Assembly: GCA_903927955.1 (NCBI GenBank)
Contig: CAIYOW010000013.1
Coordinates: forward strand, 1 to 40,485
Direction: 5' to 3'
Source of the DNA: an uncultured Methylococcaceae bacterium
GTDB taxonomy: Bacteria; Pseudomonadota; Gammaproteobacteria; Methylococcales; Methylomonadaceae
Length of the DNA: 40,485 bases
Shown: positions 2,911 to 40,485 of the stretch, one piece after another
Layout: the number at the start of each line of letters is the position of its first letter
Numbering within the stretch: the stretch's first letter is position 1
Program-made: the position numbers and the translations under genes
Notes under the pieces: generated by a model
The model's input: the letters and a program-made list of their open reading frames with translations, nothing else
Told to the model about the DNA's origin: nothing
Databases searched by the model: none

Positions 2911-5694
2911 CGGCTCAATACCCTCCATTTTAGGGTGAGAAAGGTCTATTTCCCAACAAGGTGTTGTAACTGGTGTCAAAATATCGACACCGGCGGCTAG
3001 TTTAGTCTGCCTATTCCTGTTTCTGACGACCCCATCGCGCACAAGCTCCCTTGAAAGCTCCTGGTAAGAAATACGATTTTCCGCTGCATATTTATGCATA
3101 AGGTCATTAGGTATAAATAGACGTTGCTCTTTTTTTTCGTATCTGCCCATTAAGGCAAATTTTGGCTGGTGTACAAGAATAGTAGGTATTTTAGGGTTAA
3201 AAGAATCCTCAACAATAACAAAATTCTGCATGTTGTCTTTAATAAAGCAGCTAAGGTAATCAGCCGCAGTTTTAACACCTCTTTTGGCAGTTTTGTTTTC
3301 CTTAATGATGTCCATAGCATGACTAATATAAGGTTTAGGGTAAAAAGTTAATAAAGGGTCCCCAAACTTCTCGCTTGTGAGAATATTAGCAGCAACAGTC
3401 CAGCAGGATAGCCACCTTATATTGTAGCGATAATCCTGGTCTTTAATGCCCATATGCTTGGTGTAAATATTAACTAAATTGTATAAATCGGATCGGATAG
3501 AGTTAAGATTATAGTTCTTCATCAGGTGTACTAAAAAAGCTGGGCCGGCATATCCTGCATTCAGCTGAAACTCATCTTGTAACTCAGAAGTATTTGAAGC
3601 ACTTAAGTTTTTAGGAAGGCTTAATTCAATCTCCATAATACGAATAGCTTTAGCATGTTCGTTAGCATTATTTAGAATATCAACAATAGGGGCGTTAGTG
3701 CTACCGATGAAAATATTCTTCCATACTCCTTGGGTTTTTATATCCTCGGCAGAAATAGCTAATCGCCTAATATCACGACCACTAGTAAAAGTATCAATCT
3801 GCCCGGCTAGAATATTAGTATCCATACGGCCCCATTCGTCGTTAAAAACGGGTAGGTTCTTTCTATTTGCAATAGCCTTAAACTTAGCTTTAACACTCTC
3901 GCCGTTGGTAAGGGTCAAAGCCCCCGAAAGGCCCCAAACACTTTCACCTGCTATAAGTGCTGTTGTTTTACCTTGACCTGACTTGCTACTATAAAGAGAC
4001 ACCATTGCGCCGCCTTCATTATCACTGGTGGCGAACTGCATAAGTATAGAGGCAAAAGAAGAAACGACTGCAAGCCCTTGGGCTTCGTTACCAGCCGAAA
4101 AAAGCTTATTGGCCGCCCGTCTCCAACCATTGAGAGAACCTTTAGGATTGCGCCTTAGTAAATCAGCTGCTTTTTCTACTTCTGGTGTACCAGATATTTC
4201 ACCAATAGAACCTCCAACCTTGTAACCTTCTCGACCAAGGACGAAAATTTGGTTGTCATCTTTCCAGCCAAAAGAATTGTAGCTAATATCTAGTTCACGC
4301 ATTTTCTTTCTCCCGTTTATCATCCCTTTCACAAGCTTAACAAATTGCTTTTCCATGCCAGTCTCACACATAGGCCCATAAGCACTTAAAACAGACATAC
4401 CATTTGAACTATTTAGGGTTTCTACTGGTATTGTAAAAGACTTCCATTTGCTAAAAGGCGTACGGGTTTTAAACTTTACAGATTGTTTACCTTGCTCGCC
4501 TAAGGTTTCTTCTTCCCGCATAGTGTCAATGTAAAATGGCTGATCACATACAATTACTTCTTTCTCGACCTCCTCAATTTTTACCTTACACATAATTTGC
4601 ATGTTAGGACCCCAATAATAGGGGGTAGGAAGCCAAGGTTTCTTTTCTTCGACTATTAAAGGAGGTTTTTCTTCTACTTCTTTACCAGCCTGAGTTGGGG
4701 TCGTAACCGCAAAGGGGCATCCGGTGCAGCCTTCTTCGTTAAGTTCTTTGAACCTTGCGCAAGTTGTAGGTCCGGTTTGTTTCCTTCTCGCTTGGTCGAG
4801 TTTTGCAGAGGTTTCGGCTTCACTATAATTAGAATGACCTGAAGACCATCGTTGCGCCAGTTCCTCTCCATCCTCGCAATATGCCAACACTCCAAGATTA
4901 GCATACCAGACTTGTTCAGAAACAACGCCCCGAAGTTCAGCGAAACTTTTGAGTTGATTGCATTTTTTAGCAACCATACTGCCGTAGTTCGGTGGAAATT
5001 CCCTATCATTAAGTCCTCCCAGAATTGATTGCCCGACTTCGTCGTTAGAAACTGCGGGTAGCCAATTAGGGTTAATCTTGTCCACAAATAAAGAGTTCTC
5101 AAAAGAAGGTGCGTCCTTAATGATATAGACATCTAGGGGGTGCTCTTTGTTTTTTCTGTTTTTTGTCTCAATTGGTCTGAGGATACTTGCAGAGTCAGAT
5201 GTTCTAGCATGGTCAGCAAATAATCCACTCCTGCGAACGCTTCCCTTAAAAGCTTTTGCTGTTTTTTTCCAATCCGGTTCTGACATAGGATTATCCAATA
5301 CAAAATAAGCATGGACACCATTGCCAGAACAAACCAGTAGAGGGGTAATAATATTGGCGTCTGCAACAAATTTAATAACAGCATCTTCAGCCTCCTTGAC
5401 ATTAGCGTAAGGTTTACCGTCACCAGCATCAATATCCAGCCAAAAAGCCTTAATGGACTTGACGTTAGTTTGCAACCTACCCTTGTTTGGATCAACGTAA
5501 GACGAACAAGCAAAATAGGCAGAGGCACCAGCCTTGTCAGTTGCGACAATAAAGTTCGCTAGTTCAAGATTGGTTTTGTAAAACCTATTAAAAGTTTTAC
5601 CTTCTCTGCCTATTGCTGTGCCACATCTATACCCATCTCCTTCAGGTGGTAGTATTTTTCCCAGAAAGTTTAGAAGGGCGTCCATTGATTGCAT
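2893..5694 (-). CDS. Primase-helicase: AEP-type primase fused to an SF3/DUF927-like helicase
   Basis: A 933-residue replication protein. The N-terminal part resembles archaeo-eukaryotic (RepB/prim-pol) primases: FWLDIDAG has the D87-I-D89 metal pair and GNGVHAYFVLD supplies H128. A cysteine cluster follows (C312, C323, C326), as in PriCT-like linkers. The C-terminal ATPase has a Walker A at about 572-577 (SGQGKTT) and a Walker B at about 617-622 (FNDEWG), with the DUF927-like context LYSSKSGQGKTTAL. It would prime and unwind DNA for the family A polymerase encoded upstream in the same unit. Its 5' end overlaps the HTH gene by 53 bases; ATGs at 5694 and 5685 are both possible. No T7-type TOPRIM primase is present, so this is the only primase candidate. 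Confidence 0.8.
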   Translation of the reverse strand: MQSMDALLNFLGKILPPEGDGYRCGTAIGREGKTFNRFYKTNLELANFIVATDKAGASAYFACSSYVDPNKGRLQTNVKSIKAFWLDIDAGDGKPYANVKEAEDAVIKFVADANIITPLLVCSGNGVHAYFVLDNPMSEPDWKKTAKAFKGSVRRSGLFADHARTSDSASILRPIETKNRKNKEHPLDVYIIKDAPSFENSLFVDKINPNWLPAVSNDEVGQSILGGLNDREFPPNYGSMVAKKCNQLKSFAELRGVVSEQVWYANLGVLAYCEDGEELAQRWSSGHSNYSEAETSAKLDQARRKQTGPTTCARFKELNEEGCTGCPFAVTTPTQAGKEVEEKPPLIVEEKKPWLPTPYYWGPNMQIMCKVKIEEVEKEVIVCDQPFYIDTMREEETLGEQGKQSVKFKTRTPFSKWKSFTIPVETLNSSNGMSVLSAYGPMCETGMEKQFVKLVKGMINGRKKMRELDISYNSFGWKDDNQIFVLGREGYKVGGSIGEISGTPEVEKAADLLRRNPKGSLNGWRRAANKLFSAGNEAQGLAVVSSFASILMQFATSDNEGGAMVSLYSSKSGQGKTTALIAGESVWGLSGALTLTNGESVKAKFKAIANRKNLPVFNDEWGRMDTNILAGQIDTFTSGRDIRRLAISAEDIKTQGVWKNIFIGSTNAPIVDILNNANEHAKAIRIMEIELSLPKNLSASNTSELQDEFQLNAGYAGPAFLVHLMKNYNLNSIRSDLYNLVNIYTKHMGIKDQDYRYNIRWLSCWTVAANILTSEKFGDPLLTFYPKPYISHAMDIIKENKTAKRGVKTAADYLSCFIKDNMQNFVIVEDSFNPKIPTILVHQPKFALMGRYEKKEQRLFIPNDLMHKYAAENRISYQELSRELVRDGVVRNRNRQTKLAAGVDILTPVTTPCWEIDLSHPKMEGIEPLKTEL

Positions 5695-5935
5695 CCAATA
5701 GGTATTGTTTACGTTGGAACTGGGTTACTGATAAAGGTACAGGGAAATGCTTCCTAGCCTTAACAATAGCCGCCATTTTTTCTTCTAAAAGCCCTAGCTT
5801 TGTACCCATAGGCTCAACACCATTTAACCAAGTTCGCACTGTGGAACTATCACAGCCCAGCAAATGACTAAGATCTGCAATGGTCAAACTATATTGAGCC
5901 TGTAGATAAGCTAACCTATCTCTGATTGAAGCCAT
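5642..5935 (-). CDS. Small HTH DNA-binding protein
   Basis: A 97-residue protein with a helix-turn-helix of Xre/Cro type at about residues 17-37 (LTIADLSHLLGCDSSTVRTW), where CDSSTVRTWL is the recognition helix. The rest is basic and helical. The start overlaps the stop of the gene upstream (TAATG), so translation is coupled; the 3' end overlaps the primase-helicase start by 53 bases. It may be a transcription regulator acting on the iteron-like motifs at 17518-17754, or an origin-binding partner for the primase; the sequence does not decide. It is the only clear HTH regulator in the genome. Confidence 0.7.
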   Translation of the reverse strand: MASIRDRLAYLQAQYSLTIADLSHLLGCDSSTVRTWLNGVEPMGTKLGLLEEKMAAIVKARKHFPVPLSVTQFQRKQYLLDAINGRPSKLSGKNTTT

Positions 5936-6930
5936 TATAAAATACCCGAAAGAAGGTTGTCCAATTCTGGGTCAGTTAAATCAGGGTTAATTGTCGTGGC
6001 CTGGGCCGCTGGCTGTCCCCCTGGAAGGTCAAAGTCCAACTGTTTCTCAGCAGGTTCGACAACTGTTTTTTCTGATTTAGTGGGTCTTCCGCGTTTCTTA
6101 GGTTCTTCCGGGGCTGCTTCATTAATAAAAGCCATTGGATCTTGTTGCGCGGGTTCTACTTTTTCTACTTTTGGCACTGTACCATTAGTGCTAGAAATAG
6201 CAGAGGTATGGGCAGGAGCAACAGAGACATTAACAGGAACGTCATTAGCACCAACCACATTTTTAGCTTCCTCCGAACCTATCCATTTCCGTACCCCAAC
6301 TGCTTGATCTTCGCTAACATAACCCATGGCCTTAAATACCAGCTTGGGGTAATCTACCTTGGCATCAAACGAAAGCTGAAATACTACTGTGGGGATTGGA
6401 ATATTATTGCCCGTCAAGCGTACCATGACCTTATTAAGCTCGTCCAGAGAAGCACCCGGAACACGTAGCTCATAAACATTACGTTCTGGATCATCAGCAA
6501 GCACAACTGCTAACTTTTTATAATCCGCACAGGCTTTAGACTGTTTACCAGCTGGAGTAATTTTAGAACCCCACACATTATGAGGACACGCAGCACAGGT
6601 TTTACTTTGTGGATTACTAGCTTGTGAACTTGGCCCTATGCCATTGTCTGAATAGCAATTAGGACTTTTGTTGTCTTCACCAGTATAAGCTTCGGCATAA
6701 TATGTTTTTGACTTATGCTTATTAGCATTAACAATTATGACATCTAAAGTGAAGCTGTTAACTAATTGCTCGTCGCCATTTTCGCGGATACGAAATTTTG
6801 AAGCTTTGATGCCAATAGTAGCATGGCTCTTAGATGTTGAGGAAAAAGCCTCATTAAGAGAAAGATCCATTGCTCCAAAATCTTGTAGATAGGCTGGCAG
6901 CTTAGTGTTGGTTGTAGCAGGTACTGACAT
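5935..6930 (-). CDS. Putative ssDNA-binding protein with zinc motif and AT-hook
   Basis: A 331-residue protein. Residues 40-220 form the conserved core with four cysteines (C92, C112, C115, C134) in the pattern NCYSDNGIGPSS ... TCAACPHNVWGSKI ... KAC, which suggests a bound zinc. Residues 277-285 are an AT-hook-like KKRGRPTKS in a low-complexity Pro/Glu/Ala linker. The last 15 residues are acidic and hydrophobic (DLTDPELDNLL), like the protein-interaction tails of SSB proteins. Together with its place between helicase and primase this suggests the phage SSB; family membership is inference. AAGGAG precedes the ATG. Alternative: another zinc-bearing recombination mediator. Confidence 0.5.
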   Translation of the reverse strand: MSVPATTNTKLPAYLQDFGAMDLSLNEAFSSTSKSHATIGIKASKFRIRENGDEQLVNSFTLDVIIVNANKHKSKTYYAEAYTGEDNKSPNCYSDNGIGPSSQASNPQSKTCAACPHNVWGSKITPAGKQSKACADYKKLAVVLADDPERNVYELRVPGASLDELNKVMVRLTGNNIPIPTVVFQLSFDAKVDYPKLVFKAMGYVSEDQAVGVRKWIGSEEAKNVVGANDVPVNVSVAPAHTSAISSTNGTVPKVEKVEPAQQDPMAFINEAAPEEPKKRGRPTKSEKTVVEPAEKQLDFDLPGGQPAAQATTINPDLTDPELDNLLSGIL

Positions 6931-15990: not shown

Positions 15991-16089
15991 CTATTCCTTT
16001 GTTAGTTTGGCATCGCTCAGATCGGCATACCCTCAACCATTGGGTAAGTCTGGAATTTCTCTCTGGTTCGTTGTTTGTGACTCTTTCAT
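15991..16089 (-). pseudogene. Broken pentapeptide-repeat frame with internal TGA
   Basis: One frame reads MKESQTTNQREIPDLPNG, a TGA at 16033-16035, then GYADLSDAKLTKE to TAG. The part after the stop has the pentapeptide signature and nearly the same end as locus a (AVKLTEGWRS). A start ATG follows GAGGACAAA. Most simply a pentapeptide gene that decayed by deletion; readthrough cannot be excluded. Confidence 0.45.
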
Positions 16090-16460
16090 TTTGTCCTCAA
16101 CTTGTAAACGTAAGTGAACTTTCCGGCAGTTTTTGCATAGACCGCTTCGCCAGCATCAAGCGCGGCTTTTAATTTAACGGCAAATGGTTTTAACTCGCCT
16201 TTGTATTTCGTGCGTATGGCCTTATCGTGATATTTCTTTCCGTTCCACATTATCACCTTCGCGCCGGGTCTTTTTCCCAGACCCTCGAAGTTCGACGCTT
16301 TGTATATCGTTCCTTGGTGTCCGTATTCAGCATCGGCAATTAAGTCATAAAACGCATCCCTACGGTTTGATAAATCATCCAAATCTGTACCTGTTAAGTC
16401 TGCATATTGTTTCCGCAAATTCTGAAAGCCCTGATTGTTCATCACGTAAGTTTTTGTCAT
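16086..16460 (-). CDS. 124-aa hypothetical early protein
   Basis: A 124-residue protein, basic at the C-terminus (KFTYVYKLRTK). The N-terminal half is helical (NNQGFQNLRKQYADLTGTDL), the second half has short strands around AKVIMWNGKKY. AAAGGAA precedes the ATG. No family recognised; early accessory gene. Confidence 0.65.
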   Translation of the reverse strand: MTKTYVMNNQGFQNLRKQYADLTGTDLDDLSNRRDAFYDLIADAEYGHQGTIYKASNFEGLGKRPGAKVIMWNGKKYHDKAIRTKYKGELKPFAVKLKAALDAGEAVYAKTAGKFTYVYKLRTK

Positions 16461-16464
16461 GATT

Positions 16465-16719
16465 TTATTCCTTTTGCATTAACAACGCGGTTAATTTTTC
16501 TGCACATTCACCAGCGTTTCGCATCAGTGCGTTTTGGTAGTGCAATGTGGCCAGTACTTCAGAATTTAACTTTTCTACTGCGTAACCATACTCATGGGCT
16601 AATTCTAAACTCTCCATAAGACTAGGATCATTCTTAGAGAGGTACTCAATAGCACGGGCGTAATAAATTATTTCTTGCTCGCTTGATATATATATATAGT
16701 AGCTTTTCTTCAATGTCAT
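16465..16719 (-). CDS. Hypothetical protein, probable 3' part of a split gene
   Basis: An 84-residue frame from MTLKKSYYIYISSEQEIIYY to LTALLMQKE. The stretch SSEQEIIYYARAIEYL resembles the S.EWVIYY.KA motif of a common phage hypothetical family, in which the motif lies in mid-protein, not at the N-terminus. The frame overlaps the 59-aa frame upstream by 74 bases and both cross a 13-base (AT)n tract at 16686-16698. One extra TA, or a -1 slip, would join them into one protein. The start at 16719 has no good Shine-Dalgarno, which also argues against an independent gene. Confidence 0.5.
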   Translation of the reverse strand: MTLKKSYYIYISSEQEIIYYARAIEYLSKNDPSLMESLELAHEYGYAVEKLNSEVLATLHYQNALMRNAGECAEKLTALLMQKE

Positions 16720-16825
16720 AATTATTCTTGCGCCACTCCTCGATTTCCCAAGCGTCAATAAAGTCAAAATTCAGATTGTCCAGAATAGCCCGTATTTCTT
16801 TTTGAACTTCCGTAAGCTGTGTCAT
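16646..16825 (-). CDS. Hypothetical protein, probable 5' part of a split gene
   Basis: A 59-residue frame (MTQLTEVQKEIRAILDNLNF to LLRPCY). GGGGAG precedes the ATG at 16825, so this is the translated start. The last 13 residues after the (AT)n tract look random. Joined in frame to the next gene the product would run EEKLLYIYI-SSEQEIIYYA and be about 126 residues. Confidence 0.55.
   Translation of the reverse strand: MTQLTEVQKEIRAILDNLNFDFIDAWEIEEWRKNNYDIEEKLLYIYIKRARNNLLRPCY
16686..16698. repeat. (AT)n dinucleotide tract inside a gene
   Basis: Thirteen bases of alternating A and T, at the exact place where the reading frame changes between the two halves of a probable single gene. Gain of one TA unit restores one frame. 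Slippage-prone in replication. Confidence 0.9.
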
Positions 16826-16829
16826 GATT

Positions 16830-17177
16830 TTACTCCCCTTTCGCTTTAGCGATTGCGGCGCGCGCCTCGTCAAAAATTGCTACCGTGTCGTGCTCCCATT
16901 CGGCGTTTTCTTGCGTGTCGGGCAAGCGTTCTATTGTCACTTCCAGACGGTCTAAAACGCTTTGTAGCTGATAAAGCAAGTCAGGCGCGGCACTAATCAG
17001 CCGGGCGTTTGCTTCCCGTCTTTCACGCTTGCCAGTTATCTTGCCGATGAAGGCGCCTCTATGTGGTAGATTATCCTCATTGCCGTTAGGCGTTCCGATG
17101 ATTGCCAGATATTCATCACCGTTATCGACAACGGTTAGGGCGTAATGCCAAGGGCCTTTTGTGTGTTGTGTTGTCAT
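16830..17177 (-). CDS. Conserved early phage protein (TKGPWH/EANARLI family)
   Basis: A 115-residue protein with a start motif HTKGPWHYAL and a central REANARLISAAPDLLYQLQS, a family very common in phages and prophages with no known function. Start at 17177 follows AAAGGA at the right distance; the longer form to 17228 would run over the 28-aa gene upstream. The C-terminal part is helical. Confidence 0.8.
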   Translation of the reverse strand: MTTQHTKGPWHYALTVVDNGDEYLAIIGTPNGNEDNLPHRGAFIGKITGKRERREANARLISAAPDLLYQLQSVLDRLEVTIERLPDTQENAEWEHDTVAIFDEARAAIAKAKGE

Positions 17178-17208: not shown

Positions 17209-17295
17209 TTAAGCGTACGGCAGTGCATAAACGCTCATGGCCTTACGCAAGGCGCTGTCAATATGGCTATTATAATCTTCTTTTTTCATCTTCAT
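17209..17295 (-). CDS. 28-aa leader miniprotein, first early gene
   Basis: Reads MKMKKEDYNSHIDSALRKAM and ends eight residues later at TAA. AAAGGAGAT stands 4 bases before the ATG, the strongest ribosome site of the leftward unit. It is the first open frame after the intergenic control region and is followed by another well-placed Shine-Dalgarno for the next gene. Amphipathic helix; could be a host-takeover peptide or simply a translation leader. Confidence 0.5.
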   Translation of the reverse strand: MKMKKEDYNSHIDSALRKAMSVYALPYA

Positions 17296-17387
17296 AATTA
17301 TCTCCTTTTGTGTGCGTTGTGTTAAAGACACCATAGCCGCCTGGTAAAATATAGGCAAATTAATTATGGGATATAATATTGCGAAGA

Positions 17388-17427
17388 ATAATTACCTTAA
17401 GCAACTTAATTAGCATAATTACCTTAA
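17388..17427 (+). repeat. 13-bp direct repeat ATAATTACCTTAA
   Basis: Exact copies at 17388-17400 and 17415-17427, 27 bases apart start to start, between the quasi-palindrome and the first leftward gene. This spacing and place fit a tandem operator near the leftward promoter, but no protein is known to bind it. Confidence 0.75.
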
Positions 17428-17481
17428 TTATATGTAGCCACGATATCAATGTTTTCGGTTTTTAAGGCCAGAAATAGCAAT

Positions 17482-17729
17482 AAAAAAAGTTGTAATGATT
17501 TCAATAGGTTATTTTTACGCTATGAACGATATGAACGGTCTCAACAAAGTTTTCACTACACAGTAAGTTTTTTATTTTTGAAAATTGTGAAAATTCCAGC
17601 GGAGTAAGAAATTCTGGAAAATTGGAAAAACTAAAAATTTTTCTATCTGTATACTATATTTCTTTATCTATAGCGTTAATATCGTTCATAGCGATTCACT
17701 AACCCACTGGAATCATTACAACTTTTTTT
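17482..17729. repeat. 248-bp quasi-palindrome (nested inverted repeat)
   Basis: Outer arms AAAAAAAGTTGTAATGATT (17482-17500) and its exact reverse complement (17711-17729); inner arms CGCTATGAACGATAT (17518-17532) and its exact reverse complement (17679-17693). The arms are 51 bases on each side with about 43 of 51 paired. An inner TTCCAG (17594-17599) and CTGGAA (17614-17619) pair is centred at 17606.5, one base from the centre of the outer arms. Partial pairing continues between them with small indels. Candidate origin or bidirectional promoter/operator. Confidence 0.85.
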
Positions 17730-17866
17730 TGCCTCCCACTGGTACGCTATGAACACTTTTACGAAAATTACAAAATTAAATATTTCGCGAATTAAAAAAT
17801 ATGTTTTAGAATTTATTTTGTAATTTTATTTCGCAATTAATTATTCTTAACGCCTAACAATAATCA

Positions 17867-17893
17867 AGATAATTCAGATAATTCAGATAATTC
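17867..17893 (+). repeat. Three tandem copies of AGATAATTC
   Basis: Exact 9-bp units at 17867, 17876 and 17885. AT-rich tandem units beside an inverted repeat are typical of DNA-unwinding parts of origins; the role here is inference. Confidence 0.85.
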
Positions 17894-17974
17894 ACTTAAC
17901 AACCTTAATAGACCTTAAAACAGTAATAATATCTAGTTTATAGGTATGTGCATAACTTTATTAATTATTTGTGA

Positions 17975-18007
17975 TATAAATGTCACTGTTGTATAAATGT
18001 CACTGTT
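17975..18007 (+). repeat. Tandem 16-bp repeat TATAAATGTCACTGTT
   Basis: Exact copies at 17975-17990 and 17992-18007, period 17. Each begins with a TATAAA hexamer, so they could be paired -10 elements or operators of the rightward unit, about 140-175 bases before the first rightward gene. Confidence 0.85.
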
Positions 18008-18148
18008 TTTCGTAACTCAGGATAAGGGTAAGGAGGGACGGGGAGGAAATAAAATTCCAGAGGACACTCTAAAACCGCGGCATGTTTGAAATTTTTAATA
18101 CCCATAACTGGTAAAACCGTATAGAGTGCAAAAAGACTTGGAGGCCTA

Positions 18149-18683: not shown

Positions 18684-18884
18684 ATGCCAACACAAGCTAT
18701 GTCTATTTCAGATTTGCAAGCCCATGTGACAGCTCTTCAGTTGGCCTATAATAGCGTCCTTACAGCCAATACCCAATCAGGTAACTTGGTAACAAGCTCA
18801 ACTGTAACAGCAGTACAAACGGCTATTACGACCCTTCAGACAGCAGTAAGTGCTTTGACCCCGGTATTTCAAGGTAATAACTAA
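18684..18884 (+). CDS. 66-aa tandem paralogue 2
   Basis: Same layout as the preceding gene: helix DLQAHVTALQLAYNSVL, the shared ANTQSGNLVTSSTV segment, then helix AVQTAITTLQTAVSAL. It begins 1 base after the previous stop and its last base is shared with the following ATG (TAATG), so all three genes are translated in sequence. Function unknown, possibly a trimeric coiled-coil part of the virion. Confidence 0.65.
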   Translation: MPTQAMSISDLQAHVTALQLAYNSVLTANTQSGNLVTSSTVTAVQTAITTLQTAVSALTPVFQGNN

Positions 18885-20404
18885 TGGCAAGTTTTCCGTA
18901 CGCCCCTGGATCCCAATTCGAGAACGAAACAGCAGTAAAACCTCAGCGTCTTCGGGATGTAACCGGGCGACAACTTGTTGTGCAGCACCAGAATATTTAT
19001 GAAGCTGATTTTGAATACGGGCTACAGCCTTTGCGTTGGGAAGGTTTTACAGCAGGTAGCGGAGCTATTAGTGCCGTATCTTTTTCTGGCGGCGTACAGA
19101 TGTCTGTTACAACAGGGTCTACGGATATTGCTATTCGGCAATCGCGCCCTTATCATAGGTATCAACCTGGTAAAACAATGAAGATGGCCACCGCCGCTAA
19201 CTTTGGTGGGGCTACTACTAATCAACGGCAACGCGTTGGGTTTTTTGATGATGGCAATGGTATATTCTTTGAACAGGCTGATCCAACAACAACTAATCCA
19301 AGTGGTATGTTTTGTGTTTATCGGTCTAACATTAACGGTTTACCTATAGATACTCGCGTTAGCATTGAACAGTGGAATGGGAACCAAGCAGTAATTGCTG
19401 CGCTTAATTGGTCTAACATCCAAATGCTATGGATTGAGTATGCATGGTATGGTGCGGGTGGCCTGCGTTGGGGTGTCACAATTAACGGTGAACAATATAT
19501 TTTGCATCAATTTGGCACTGGCAATAATCTGGCTAATCCTTGGTGTCGGACTGGTAACCTTCCTGTTAGGTATGAACTTCGCAACATTGGAACGGTTACA
19601 GCAGGGACAACTTTTTATCATTACGGTGTATCTGTTTTGGTTGAAGGCGGCGTGGATGAACAGCGTGGGTTTACCTATTCGTATGGGATGGCAGCTCAGA
19701 CGCCCCAAAGAACGGTGTCGTCAAACACAGTAAGGTATCCGGTTCTTTCTATTCAGCCTCGTGCGATGGGCACGCAAGAGTATACTCAGGCAACAGCGGC
19801 TATTACAGCGGGTACGACTACGACCATGACAGCTTCTTCGGCGGCGTGGACTGTTAACCAGTGGAAGGGCAAATATGTTATATTTCCTTCTTTAGGCACA
19901 AATGGCTTGATGGCTTTGATTACTAGCAACACTGCAACCGTGTTGACTTTTCAAGATGCTATTACAGGCCTTGCTTTGGCGTCGGCTCCTACAGCGGGTA
20001 TTAATTATACTATTGGATATCCTAACCGGGGGCAATTACTACCGCGCACATTAATCTTGACATCATCGGCTATTTGCCAAGTAGAATTAATTGTAAGCAC
20101 ACCAGGTAGTCCAGTGGTTTTAACAGGTGCTTCATTTGTGGCCTTGTCGACTCTTGGGTCTGCTAACTCTTTTGCTACACGAGATGTTTCAGCCACGGCT
20201 ATGACTGGGGGAGAAGTAGTTTATGCTTTTGCGGCTCCTGCGGGTGGTTCTGGGTTACAAACATTTGATTTGAAAGACTTCTTCCCATTGGTCAATCTTA
20301 TTAAGGGGAATTACCCAGACATCCTTACTGTGGCAGTGACAACTCCTTCGGGGACAGCAGCAAACGTAGGTGCAAACCTTATTTGCCAGGAAAAGATGTC
20401 ATAA
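18884..20404 (+). CDS. 506-aa virion structural protein (minor structural or spike)
   Basis: N-terminus PGSQFENETAVKPQRLRDVT, then mostly beta with Gly/Thr/Asn-rich turns. Residues 55-230 look like a lectin-type beta-sandwich; a second beta region around 300-365 (ITAGTTTTMTASSAAWTVNQ, then GKYVIFPS) has the look of a small repeated phage domain. No enzymatic motif or signal peptide. Placed between the small paralogues and the terminase, ahead of the head genes. Structural role is inferred from composition and context; head fibre and capsid spike are possibilities. Confidence 0.55.
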   Translation: MASFPYAPGSQFENETAVKPQRLRDVTGRQLVVQHQNIYEADFEYGLQPLRWEGFTAGSGAISAVSFSGGVQMSVTTGSTDIAIRQSRPYHRYQPGKTMKMATAANFGGATTNQRQRVGFFDDGNGIFFEQADPTTTNPSGMFCVYRSNINGLPIDTRVSIEQWNGNQAVIAALNWSNIQMLWIEYAWYGAGGLRWGVTINGEQYILHQFGTGNNLANPWCRTGNLPVRYELRNIGTVTAGTTFYHYGVSVLVEGGVDEQRGFTYSYGMAAQTPQRTVSSNTVRYPVLSIQPRAMGTQEYTQATAAITAGTTTTMTASSAAWTVNQWKGKYVIFPSLGTNGLMALITSNTATVLTFQDAITGLALASAPTAGINYTIGYPNRGQLLPRTLILTSSAICQVELIVSTPGSPVVLTGASFVALSTLGSANSFATRDVSATAMTGGEVVYAFAAPAGGSGLQTFDLKDFFPLVNLIKGNYPDILTVAVTTPSGTAANVGANLICQEKMS

Positions 20405-38425: not shown

Positions 38426-38556
38426 AAATATATTATTTAAAAAACAGAGACCAGTCTGATCCTTTAAAAATACTTCACATGTGGGCGATAGGACGCACGT
38501 TTGCAGTAAAATTGTTTGTCGGCCCTAAGTTCTATAATATTAGGTTAAAAATATGA
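38422..38556 (+). CDS. 44-aa basic miniprotein coupled to both neighbours
   Basis: Reads MKIYYLKNRDQSDPLKILHM and goes on to FYNIRLKI. Its ATG overlaps the ejection-protein stop and its stop overlaps the ATP-grasp start, both as ATGA, so translation is likely. Family not recognised. Confidence 0.55.
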   Translation: MKIYYLKNRDQSDPLKILHMWAIGRTFAVKLFVGPKFYNIRLKI

Positions 38557-39869
38557 AAATACTTATTATAGACGCCAGCGGGGCTTCATTAGACTGGACT
38601 ATGCGGTGCCTTAAAGATGGACACCAAGTTAAATGGTATCTTCCCGCCATGAAAAGCAAACTTATGCCTTGTAAAATCGGGAAAGGGCTTGTGGAAATAG
38701 TTAATGACCCTCGTGATTGGTATCGCTGGGCGGATCTTATATTCTATACCGATAACACCAAATGGATTGAGTATGCTGATATATGGCGTTCTCAAGGCTG
38801 GCCGGTTATTTCTCCTTCTGCCATTACAAGGGAATGGGAATTAGACCGTGATTTAGGGCAAACAATTCTTAAAAAAGCGGGTGTTAAAACTATCCCCGGC
38901 AAGGGCTTTAACGACTACGATACCGCTATAAATTATGTAAAAAAAGAAATGAAACGGTTTGTGTCAAAACCAAGCGGAGATGCTGATAAAGCTTTGTCTT
39001 ACGTATCTAAATCTCCTGCTGATATGGTTTATATGCTGCAAAGGTGGAAAAAGACCAATAAGCTAAAAAGAGAGTTCATTCTGCAATCTTTCTGTCCAGG
39101 GGTAGAGATGGCCGTTGGAGGGTGGTTTGGGCCAGGGGGATTTAATGAGGGCTGGTGTGAGAACTGGGAATTCAAAAAACTTATGAACGATGATTTAGGC
39201 GTTGCCACGGGGGAGCAAGGTACGGTAGTTCGATACACTAAAAAGTCTCTATTGGCTGATAAAGTCCTTAGGCCTGTTGAAGAAGCTTTAGCTAAAGAAA
39301 ACTATGTGGGCTATGTAGATGTTAACTGTATTATTTCTGAAGATGGTACTCCATGGCCTTTAGAATTTACTATGCGCCCCGGCTGGCCATTATTTAATAT
39401 TCAGCAACCTTTACACATTGGGGACCCTGCTGAGTGGTTATATGATCTGGCGGTTGGCAGAGACGCCAAAAACTTTAAGATTAACGAAATAGCGGTTGGT
39501 GTGGTATTATCAATTCCAGATTACCCTTATAGCCAGTTGACTCGCCGCGAAGTACAAGGGATACCTGTCTACGGGTTTGAACTAAACGAGGATATACATC
39601 CATGCGAAATGATGATGGGCGTAGCCCCGCAGGAGAAAGATGGGAAGATACTGGATTTACCTTGCATGGTGACAGCTGGCGATTACGTACTAGTGACGAC
39701 AGGGACATCCTCAACAATATCTTCAGCGAAGAAAAAAGCCTATGCAACAATGAAGAAGTTACAAGTACCGAACAGCCCGATGTATCGGACGGATATTGGG
39801 AGCAGATTGAAAAAACAATTACCCGAACTTCAAGCAATGGGGTACGCAAAAGATCTGATCTACCAATAG
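38553..39869 (+). CDS. ATP-grasp enzyme, PurD (GAR synthetase)-like
   Basis: A 438-residue protein with the length and order of phosphoribosylamine-glycine ligase. N-terminal Rossmann-like start MKILIIDASGASLDWTMRCL; ATP-grasp strands at FVSKPSGDADKALSYV (136-151) and FILQSFCPGVEMAVGG (175-190); Mg/ATP site WPLEFTMRPGWPLFNIQ (E271), matching the LEFN.R.GDPE site of GARS, with Thr and Trp replacing Asn and Asp. It ends MYRTDIGSRL as GARS often does. It may make purines for phage DNA, or ligate an amino acid in DNA or protein modification; substitutions leave the substrate open. No other pur gene is present. Its last 268 bases also encode the next gene. Confidence 0.75.
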   Translation: MKILIIDASGASLDWTMRCLKDGHQVKWYLPAMKSKLMPCKIGKGLVEIVNDPRDWYRWADLIFYTDNTKWIEYADIWRSQGWPVISPSAITREWELDRDLGQTILKKAGVKTIPGKGFNDYDTAINYVKKEMKRFVSKPSGDADKALSYVSKSPADMVYMLQRWKKTNKLKREFILQSFCPGVEMAVGGWFGPGGFNEGWCENWEFKKLMNDDLGVATGEQGTVVRYTKKSLLADKVLRPVEEALAKENYVGYVDVNCIISEDGTPWPLEFTMRPGWPLFNIQQPLHIGDPAEWLYDLAVGRDAKNFKINEIAVGVVLSIPDYPYSQLTRREVQGIPVYGFELNEDIHPCEMMMGVAPQEKDGKILDLPCMVTAGDYVLVTTGTSSTISSAKKKAYATMKKLQVPNSPMYRTDIGSRLKKQLPELQAMGYAKDLIYQ

Positions 39870-40126: not shown

Positions 40127-40466
40127 TTTGTACCCTCAATGCCGCAATTTTTGCCTCTAAGGTAGCTAAAGCCTGGGCCGAGGTCATGCTGGGAAAATTA
40201 GGATCCGTTGATGAAAAAGTACTTGTTGAACCTGTTTGTGCCCCTCGCACCATGCGAGGTGTTTGTAAAGCCTCTAAGGCTGCAATTTGGTCTAAAATGG
40301 TAGGTTGTTGCACCGCAGTTTGAGAAGGAGTAGGGGGCGTAAAAACGCCATTGACGTAAGACCAACCTATCTGACCAACGTCAGTCTGTACATCTTCGGA
40401 ATTAAGCGGAAAATCCGAAACGTATAGATTGCTTACAACTCCATCTACTATAACAGCATAGTTCAT
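40110..40466 (-). CDS. Tail fibre assembly protein
   Basis: A 118-residue protein. N-terminus MNYAVIVDGVVSNLYVSDFP, then QIGWSYVNGVFTPPTPS: the V.NG.V.N and G..Y.NG.F..P pattern of phage tail-fibre assembly proteins. The C-terminal half is helical (AQALATLEAKIAALRVQIS). On the circular map it starts 7 bases after the tail fibre stop (130-132). Convergent with the plus-strand unit and overlapping its last gene by 17 bases. Confidence 0.75.
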   Translation of the reverse strand: MNYAVIVDGVVSNLYVSDFPLNSEDVQTDVGQIGWSYVNGVFTPPTPSQTAVQQPTILDQIAALEALQTPRMVRGAQTGSTSTFSSTDPNFPSMTSAQALATLEAKIAALRVQISSAQ

Positions 40467-40485
40467 AAAAACCTCACGCGCTTAA
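40345..40485. repeat. Right copy of 141-bp exact terminal direct repeat
   Basis: Identical to 1-141. The unique genome length is therefore 40344 bp if circular. See the left copy for interpretation. Confidence 0.97.

Follow-up and report, generated by a model that had tools for sequence, protein, structure and literature searches.

What kind of site lies in the intergenic region from which the two gene blocks of this phage diverge, and why is it built as a mirror image of itself? The window analysed here, i.e. the whole stretch of 40,485 nucleotides from an uncultured Methylococcaceae bacterium (contig CAIYOW010000013.1), begins and ends with the same 141 bases (1-141 = 40345-40485; 30-mers recur as expected, and the rest was compared by eye), identical ends such as a circular assembly should give, so that the contig probably represents a phage genome of ~40.3 kb, either circular or circularly permuted. 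The leftward block includes genes encoding DNA polymerase, helicase, and a primase-like protein; the rightward one includes those for terminase, head-tail adaptor, and major head protein. Between the two diverging blocks lie 920 bp of intergenic DNA (17229-18148), which shrink to 853 bp should a possible 28-aa ORF at 17209-17295 be genuine. On its left, the mirrored element is 186 bp away from this possible ORF and 253 bp away from the ORF starting at 17228; on its right, the first rightward gene (18149) follows after 419 bp. Thus the placement of the element exactly between the operons, as proposed in the sequence-only reading, is only roughly right.

Four phage proteins matched phage records at less than 60% identity in every case, and the head-tail adaptor, the fifth protein compared, matched none of these records; the control region therefore has no studied counterpart in that phage collection. 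The 3-kb stretch around the element matched 27 phage records, and the 20 matches listed all lie left of the intergenic region, while the intergenic DNA itself has no match in plasmids. Relatives of the major capsid protein were found in 4 of 369 genomes of the host class, one being the window itself and the others weak, and the protein encoded at 18884-20404 is present in the window alone among 101 host relatives. We found no published description of the mirrored intergenic element, which does not show that it is unpublished. Two other genes of this genome deserve mention. In the product of 38553-39869, two phosphoribosylglycinamide synthetase (PurD-like) domains score above the Pfam cut-offs, which is unexpected next to phage structural genes, and 16086-16460 encodes a Mom-like DNA modification protein, the surrounding DNA matching Mom-like genes of Klebsiella, Vibrio, and Enterococcus phages.

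The inverted repeat is genuine and far above chance. On recount, the arms 17482-17532 and 17679-17729 agree at 43 of 51 positions (19 exact, 9/17 in the spacer, 15 exact) around a centre at 17605.5, exactly as first described from the sequence. The best ungapped run (17482-17537/17674-17729) scores 33.5, the runner-up inverted repeat in the whole window only 13.0, and the shuffling check proposed with the original description, made here with 200 dinucleotide shuffles of the 920-bp intergenic region, gave a mean of 10.9 and a maximum of 15.0, which rules out a chance origin. The additional TTCCAG/CTGGAA pair reported at almost the same centre is present (17594-17599/17614-17619, centre 17606.5), but it is probably a chance occurrence since it is short, one base off-centre, and not found by eye in the nearest relative, L053. 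Both arms can be read in one frame as KKSCND..RYERY; this coding reading was rejected by inspection because L053 has stop codons in the matching stretch (by eye) and the arm differences show no third-position preference.

From outside inward, each arm consists of an A-tract block, a spacer, and three 9-bp units (Table 1), so that short tandem repeats at constant spacing are found in both arms, as they are in L053, and repeated sites lie between diverging operons. In place of the IHF-like TCAATAGGTTA of the left arm, the right arm has just a degenerate TCCAGTGGGTTA-like form. Two copies of the 20-mer CGCTATGAACGATATKAACG are present in the window (up to 3 mismatches) against 0.01 expected, with no exact match in viral_contigs. 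The most weakly paired stretches lie right of the centre, from ~17790 to 17996, near the tandem AT-rich 9-mers and the DnaA-box match.

Table 1. Mapped features of the mirrored element and the adjoining intergenic DNA (window coordinates)
Feature	Position	Strand	Remarks
Left arm of inverted repeat	17482..17549	+	Longer arm call: 68 nt, 79% complementarity; score 33.5; gapped alignment
Right arm of inverted repeat	17662..17729	-	Same basis as left arm
Outer 19-bp exact block, left (A-tract, AAAAAAAGTTGTAATGATT)	17482..17500	+	Arm comparison
Outer 19-bp exact block, right	17711..17729	-	Arm comparison
TCAATAGGTTA	17501..17511	+	With the two preceding bases, one mismatch to IHF consensus WATCAANNNNTTR
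Left array CGCTATGAA CGATATGAA CGGTCTCAA	17518..17544	+	Three tandem 9-bp units
AT-rich centre between arrays	17545..17666	.	122 bp; overlaps the window's second least stable 120-bp stretch (17564-17683)
Right array CGCTATGAA CGATATTAA CGCTATAGA	17667..17693	-	Three 9-bp units, mirrored
Additional lone unit CGCTATGAA	17745..17753	+	Outside right arm
Tandem 9-bp AT-rich repeats (AGATAATTC)	17860..17895	+	Weakly paired DNA, same intergenic region
DnaA box, one exact match TTATGCACA	17947..17955	-	Absent from the gaps of 13 relatives
17-bp repeat TATAAATGTCACTGTTG, about two copies	17970..18007	+	Repeat detection

Judged by sequence, L053, a 14.8-kb viral contig (identities: terminase 71%, head-tail adaptor 73%, major head protein 89%), is the nearest relative found and carries a homologous element of the same layout. 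The window element aligned with the divergent region of L053 at a score of 107, against at most 71 in 200 shuffles. In L053, the A-tract block is followed by CACTATTAA CAATCTCAA CAGAATCAA in the left arm (from 1572) and by CAATATTAA CACTATTAA CAATATCAA, mirrored, in the right arm (1711-1685). Over the four arrays of the two phages, which were picked by eye, identity at a lag of 9 is 53/72, a value reached by none of 5000 single-base shuffles; the L053 left array was placed one base off the correct start in this count. L053 is the only relative with this type of 9-bp unit.

The arms of one phage resemble each other more in alignment score (81 and 62) than they resemble either the orthologous arms of the other phage (59 for the left and 42 for the right) or the cross-arm pairs (49 and 29), which is what one would expect of two arms that change with a single protein. 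These scores suggest a paired change of both arms, and it is on score that the suggestion turns because raw identity fails to separate the left-arm orthologues (56/68) from arms within one phage (57 identities over 71 aligned positions in the gapped alignment of the window's two arms, and 58/76).

Taken together, we consider the chances about even that the element is a symmetric protein-docking site which coordinates both outward-running operons from one place. A DNA-binding protein of the phage or the host would fill the three units of each arm cooperatively; the arms would then pair across the centre, aided by DNA bending at the A-tracts and at the IHF-like site of the left arm; and the paired-arm complex would hold or release both operons together. 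The comparison with L053 suggests that both arms follow one such protein, and the binder of the window's 9-bp units may be host-encoded or the product of an unassigned early gene. A regulator is favoured by the HTH genes that three relatives carry next to the gap. However, no adjacent gene for a cognate regulator, HTH or RHH, was found among the scanned early genes of the window, a set that leaves aside the 28-aa ORF and the frame 16646-16873. Two further points against a docking site are that the best-scoring promoter candidates are found beyond the arms and that, in L053, the best leftward candidate coincides with a palindrome separate from the mirrored element.

A small protein encoded at 5642-5935 has sub-threshold HTH matches and, in relatives, its gene sits before that of the primase-like protein; it is possibly a terminase small subunit or a replication factor. 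We do not favour it as the binder because relatives with other motifs keep the gene. The first early gene of L053 seems, by eye, to encode a ribbon-helix-helix (RHH) protein, with profile support only below threshold (NikA-like, E 0.014). Its structural model, made with no alignment, is of low confidence (mean pLDDT 54.6), and none of 40 Foldseek matches reached E 0.001 or better, the weak top matches including proteins that we take to be RHH; a PDB sequence search returned two weak unrelated matches. The separate L053 palindrome (1418-1475), which coincides with the best leftward promoter candidate of that contig, is possibly the operator of this RHH-like gene.

How widely is such symmetry shared? 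At least 113 terminase loci (at least 80 viral and 33 genomic, most of the genomic ones weak) were collected, and 62 were screened for inverted repeats and gaps, 33 with a gap and 29 without. Gap borders were set by eye for 13 relatives: 12 of them are loci with terminase identity of at least 48% whose contig extends to a clear divergent gap, and the thirteenth is L049, taken from the polymerase set. The repeats of L058, L059, and L060 share score and geometry with those of L057 and L061, and these three loci were therefore counted as duplicates; L068 (no clear divergent gap) and L054, L055, L062, L064, and L067 (too short upstream) were left out. The best inverted repeat beats all 100 shuffles in nine of the 13 gaps (L053, L056, L057, L061, L066, L069, L072, L080, and L049), that of L072 being a TA run, and no significant repeat was found with the same number of shuffles in the other four (L063, L065, L070, and L071). 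Thus the finding named from the outset as one that would refute the sequence-only reading, relatives with the same genes and no symmetry, is borne out in part, by four of the 13. Since a cruder automatic gap finder gave 8 of 33 loci above 40 shuffles, the mirrored pattern is common, not universal, and partly dependent on gap borders. Among the window and the 13 relatives, the best inverted repeat of the locus falls in the gap in 12 of 14 (by a margin of only 0.5 in L063 and L065), and 13 of the 14 gaps contain more repeated 9-mers than any of 100 shuffles.

Outside L053, the repeats of the relatives are mostly of unrelated sequence, as compared by eye. L042 and L057 are the same contig, whose arms are pairs of palindromic operator-like sites (TTATCACAAATTGTGATAA-like palindromes); one arm (L042 5971-6007) overlaps the mechanical start of an HTH gene (6002-6274) and, with a later start codon, would lie ~30-50 bp upstream of it. 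Cro/CI-type HTH genes adjoin the gap in this contig, L049, and L056, and Pfam gave no HTH in nine gap-side proteins of L061, L063, L066, L069, L070, and L080. Another 39 loci, found via the protein at 18884-20404, were dropped as not syntenic by the ORF maps of 29; none of the 39 has an inverted repeat with a score of at least 16. A leader at 18015-18085 (AACTCAGG..GGGACGGGG..AAACCGCG), upstream of the rightward operon, is conserved in L053 and partly, by eye, in L063, L042, and L056; it is possibly a promoter, leader, or packaging signal.

The main rival of the docking site is a replication origin, where an initiator would bind the inverted arrays and open the AT-rich DNA between or beside them, with replication leaving both ways. 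The inverted arrays do surround AT-rich DNA with a near-IHF site, and the same intergenic region contains very weakly paired stretches, the DnaA-box match, and the tandem AT-rich 9-mers, although an AT-rich unwinding region beside repeats says little where the whole intergenic region is AT-rich. The GC skew changes sign at ~18-19 kb, but gene direction confounds this signal, almost every predicted gene being oriented along the skew. The DnaA box has no second copy in the 14 gaps, where 0.73 is expected by shuffling, no Rep-like initiator was found among the scanned proteins (part of the window's ORFs), and the HTH genes next to the gap of three relatives would suit operators equally well. Because of the AT-rich centre, the skew change, and the iteron form, we retain an origin as a possible, if doubtful, explanation. 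A combined form, in which inverted 9-bp initiator arrays, one for each direction of replication, flank the melting region and also time both operons, seems to us rather unlikely.

Alternatively, the element may be an IHF-dependent architectural site or enhancer that needs no dedicated phage protein. In the 14 gaps we counted 18 exact copies of the consensus WATCAANNNNTTR, where shuffles give 1.5 (largest 5); its density is 1.37 per kb in gaps and 0.06 outside (~20-fold). The motif TCAATRGSTTA was found 17 times against 0.02 expected, though this count was made on the very gaps in which the motif had first been spotted. It is reasonable to suppose that host IHF may read the gap sites. In the host genome, TCAATRGSTTA occurs 19 times (one in the window) against twice for the reversed control, and three of the 18 sites outside the window (L252, L263, and L266) lie in short frames after A-rich letters; 13 of the 18, however, fall in open frames of at least 124 codons. 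The inner four bases are TRGS in 19 of the 48 TCAANNNNTT sites of the gaps, which we take to be unusual for IHF. For the element itself, this explanation is very unlikely: the window's gap has no exact IHF match, its IHF-like content being the one left-arm TCAATAGGTTA, none lies in the right arm, and IHF leaves the 9-bp units unexplained.

The sequence-only reading had proposed an inverted duplication through which the diverging operons may each carry the same promoter/operator. Its first part, the duplication of a module with a regulatory look, finds support because both arms share the A-tract and the 9-bp array and L053 has the same design. The promoter part is not supported: in a consensus scan, the arms yielded no promoter-like site (4 across the region against 5.5 in shuffles), and the leftward candidates ranked best by a rough sigma-70 matrix fall outside the arm, at 17358-17330 in the window and 1490-1462 in L053. 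Mirror copies naturally share much of their content, and weaker promoter candidates (score ~6) do overlap the arms in both phages, prediction being weak in AT-rich DNA; nevertheless, we give mirrored promoters very little credence. An equally improbable explanation is a structural element, a cruciform or single-strand hairpin serving initiation, packaging, or recombination: the single-strand DNA folds well (-45.3 kcal/mol, where shuffles average -18.7; z -8.1), as does the RNA (z -9.2), but equally good folding is expected of any long inverted repeat, the centre differs in length (86 bp in L053), no Rfam family reached its gathering score anywhere in the window, which also rejects a known RNA, and the cruciform extrusion suggested earlier is unlikely because of the long distance between the arms, 112-146 bp depending on the arm cut and 112 bp for the 68-nt arms, where long arms with a short spacer would be looked for.

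None of the known systems compared here corresponds fully to the window element. Lambda-type OL/OR are phage operator sets for divergent operons; as in these, sites of one kind recur in the window on either side of a divergent region, and three relatives have HTH genes next to the gap. The units of the window, however, are direct 9-bp repeats in tandem and not palindromes, a repressor gene was not found in the window, and no integrase was found among the scanned proteins. In herpesvirus oriS/oriL and E. coli oriC, initiator sites are oppositely oriented around AT-rich DNA, an arrangement to which the element may be likened by analogy and not by homology. Iteron-type origins of plasmids and phage satellites, such as the PLE origin, also have short repeated sites near AT-rich or A-tract non-coding DNA. 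In PLE1, RepA binds three semi-palindromic iterons of ~30 bp each (PMC8263062, PMC7145576), unlike the 9-bp units in two inverted arrays found here, with no initiator among the scanned proteins. The sites of pSM19035 ParB (omega), a ribbon-helix-helix protein, are heptads whose partition function needs four or more contiguous repeats (PMC9499535); they resemble the window element in their contiguous short repeats, and L053 has an RHH-like first early gene, but the units here are of 9 bp and no RHH gene was found among the scanned early genes of the window.

In summary, the symmetric docking site that we favour, like the origin that rivals it, is confined to a small testable fragment for finding the switch or origin of these phages. 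If the combined, two-sided iteron origin were true, one symmetric complex would switch both replication and transcription, and the family would keep the geometry while the recognised sequence is replaced by lineage. A geometry that is often mirrored at the same place, with letters that differ, would point to co-evolution with fast-changing DNA-binding proteins.
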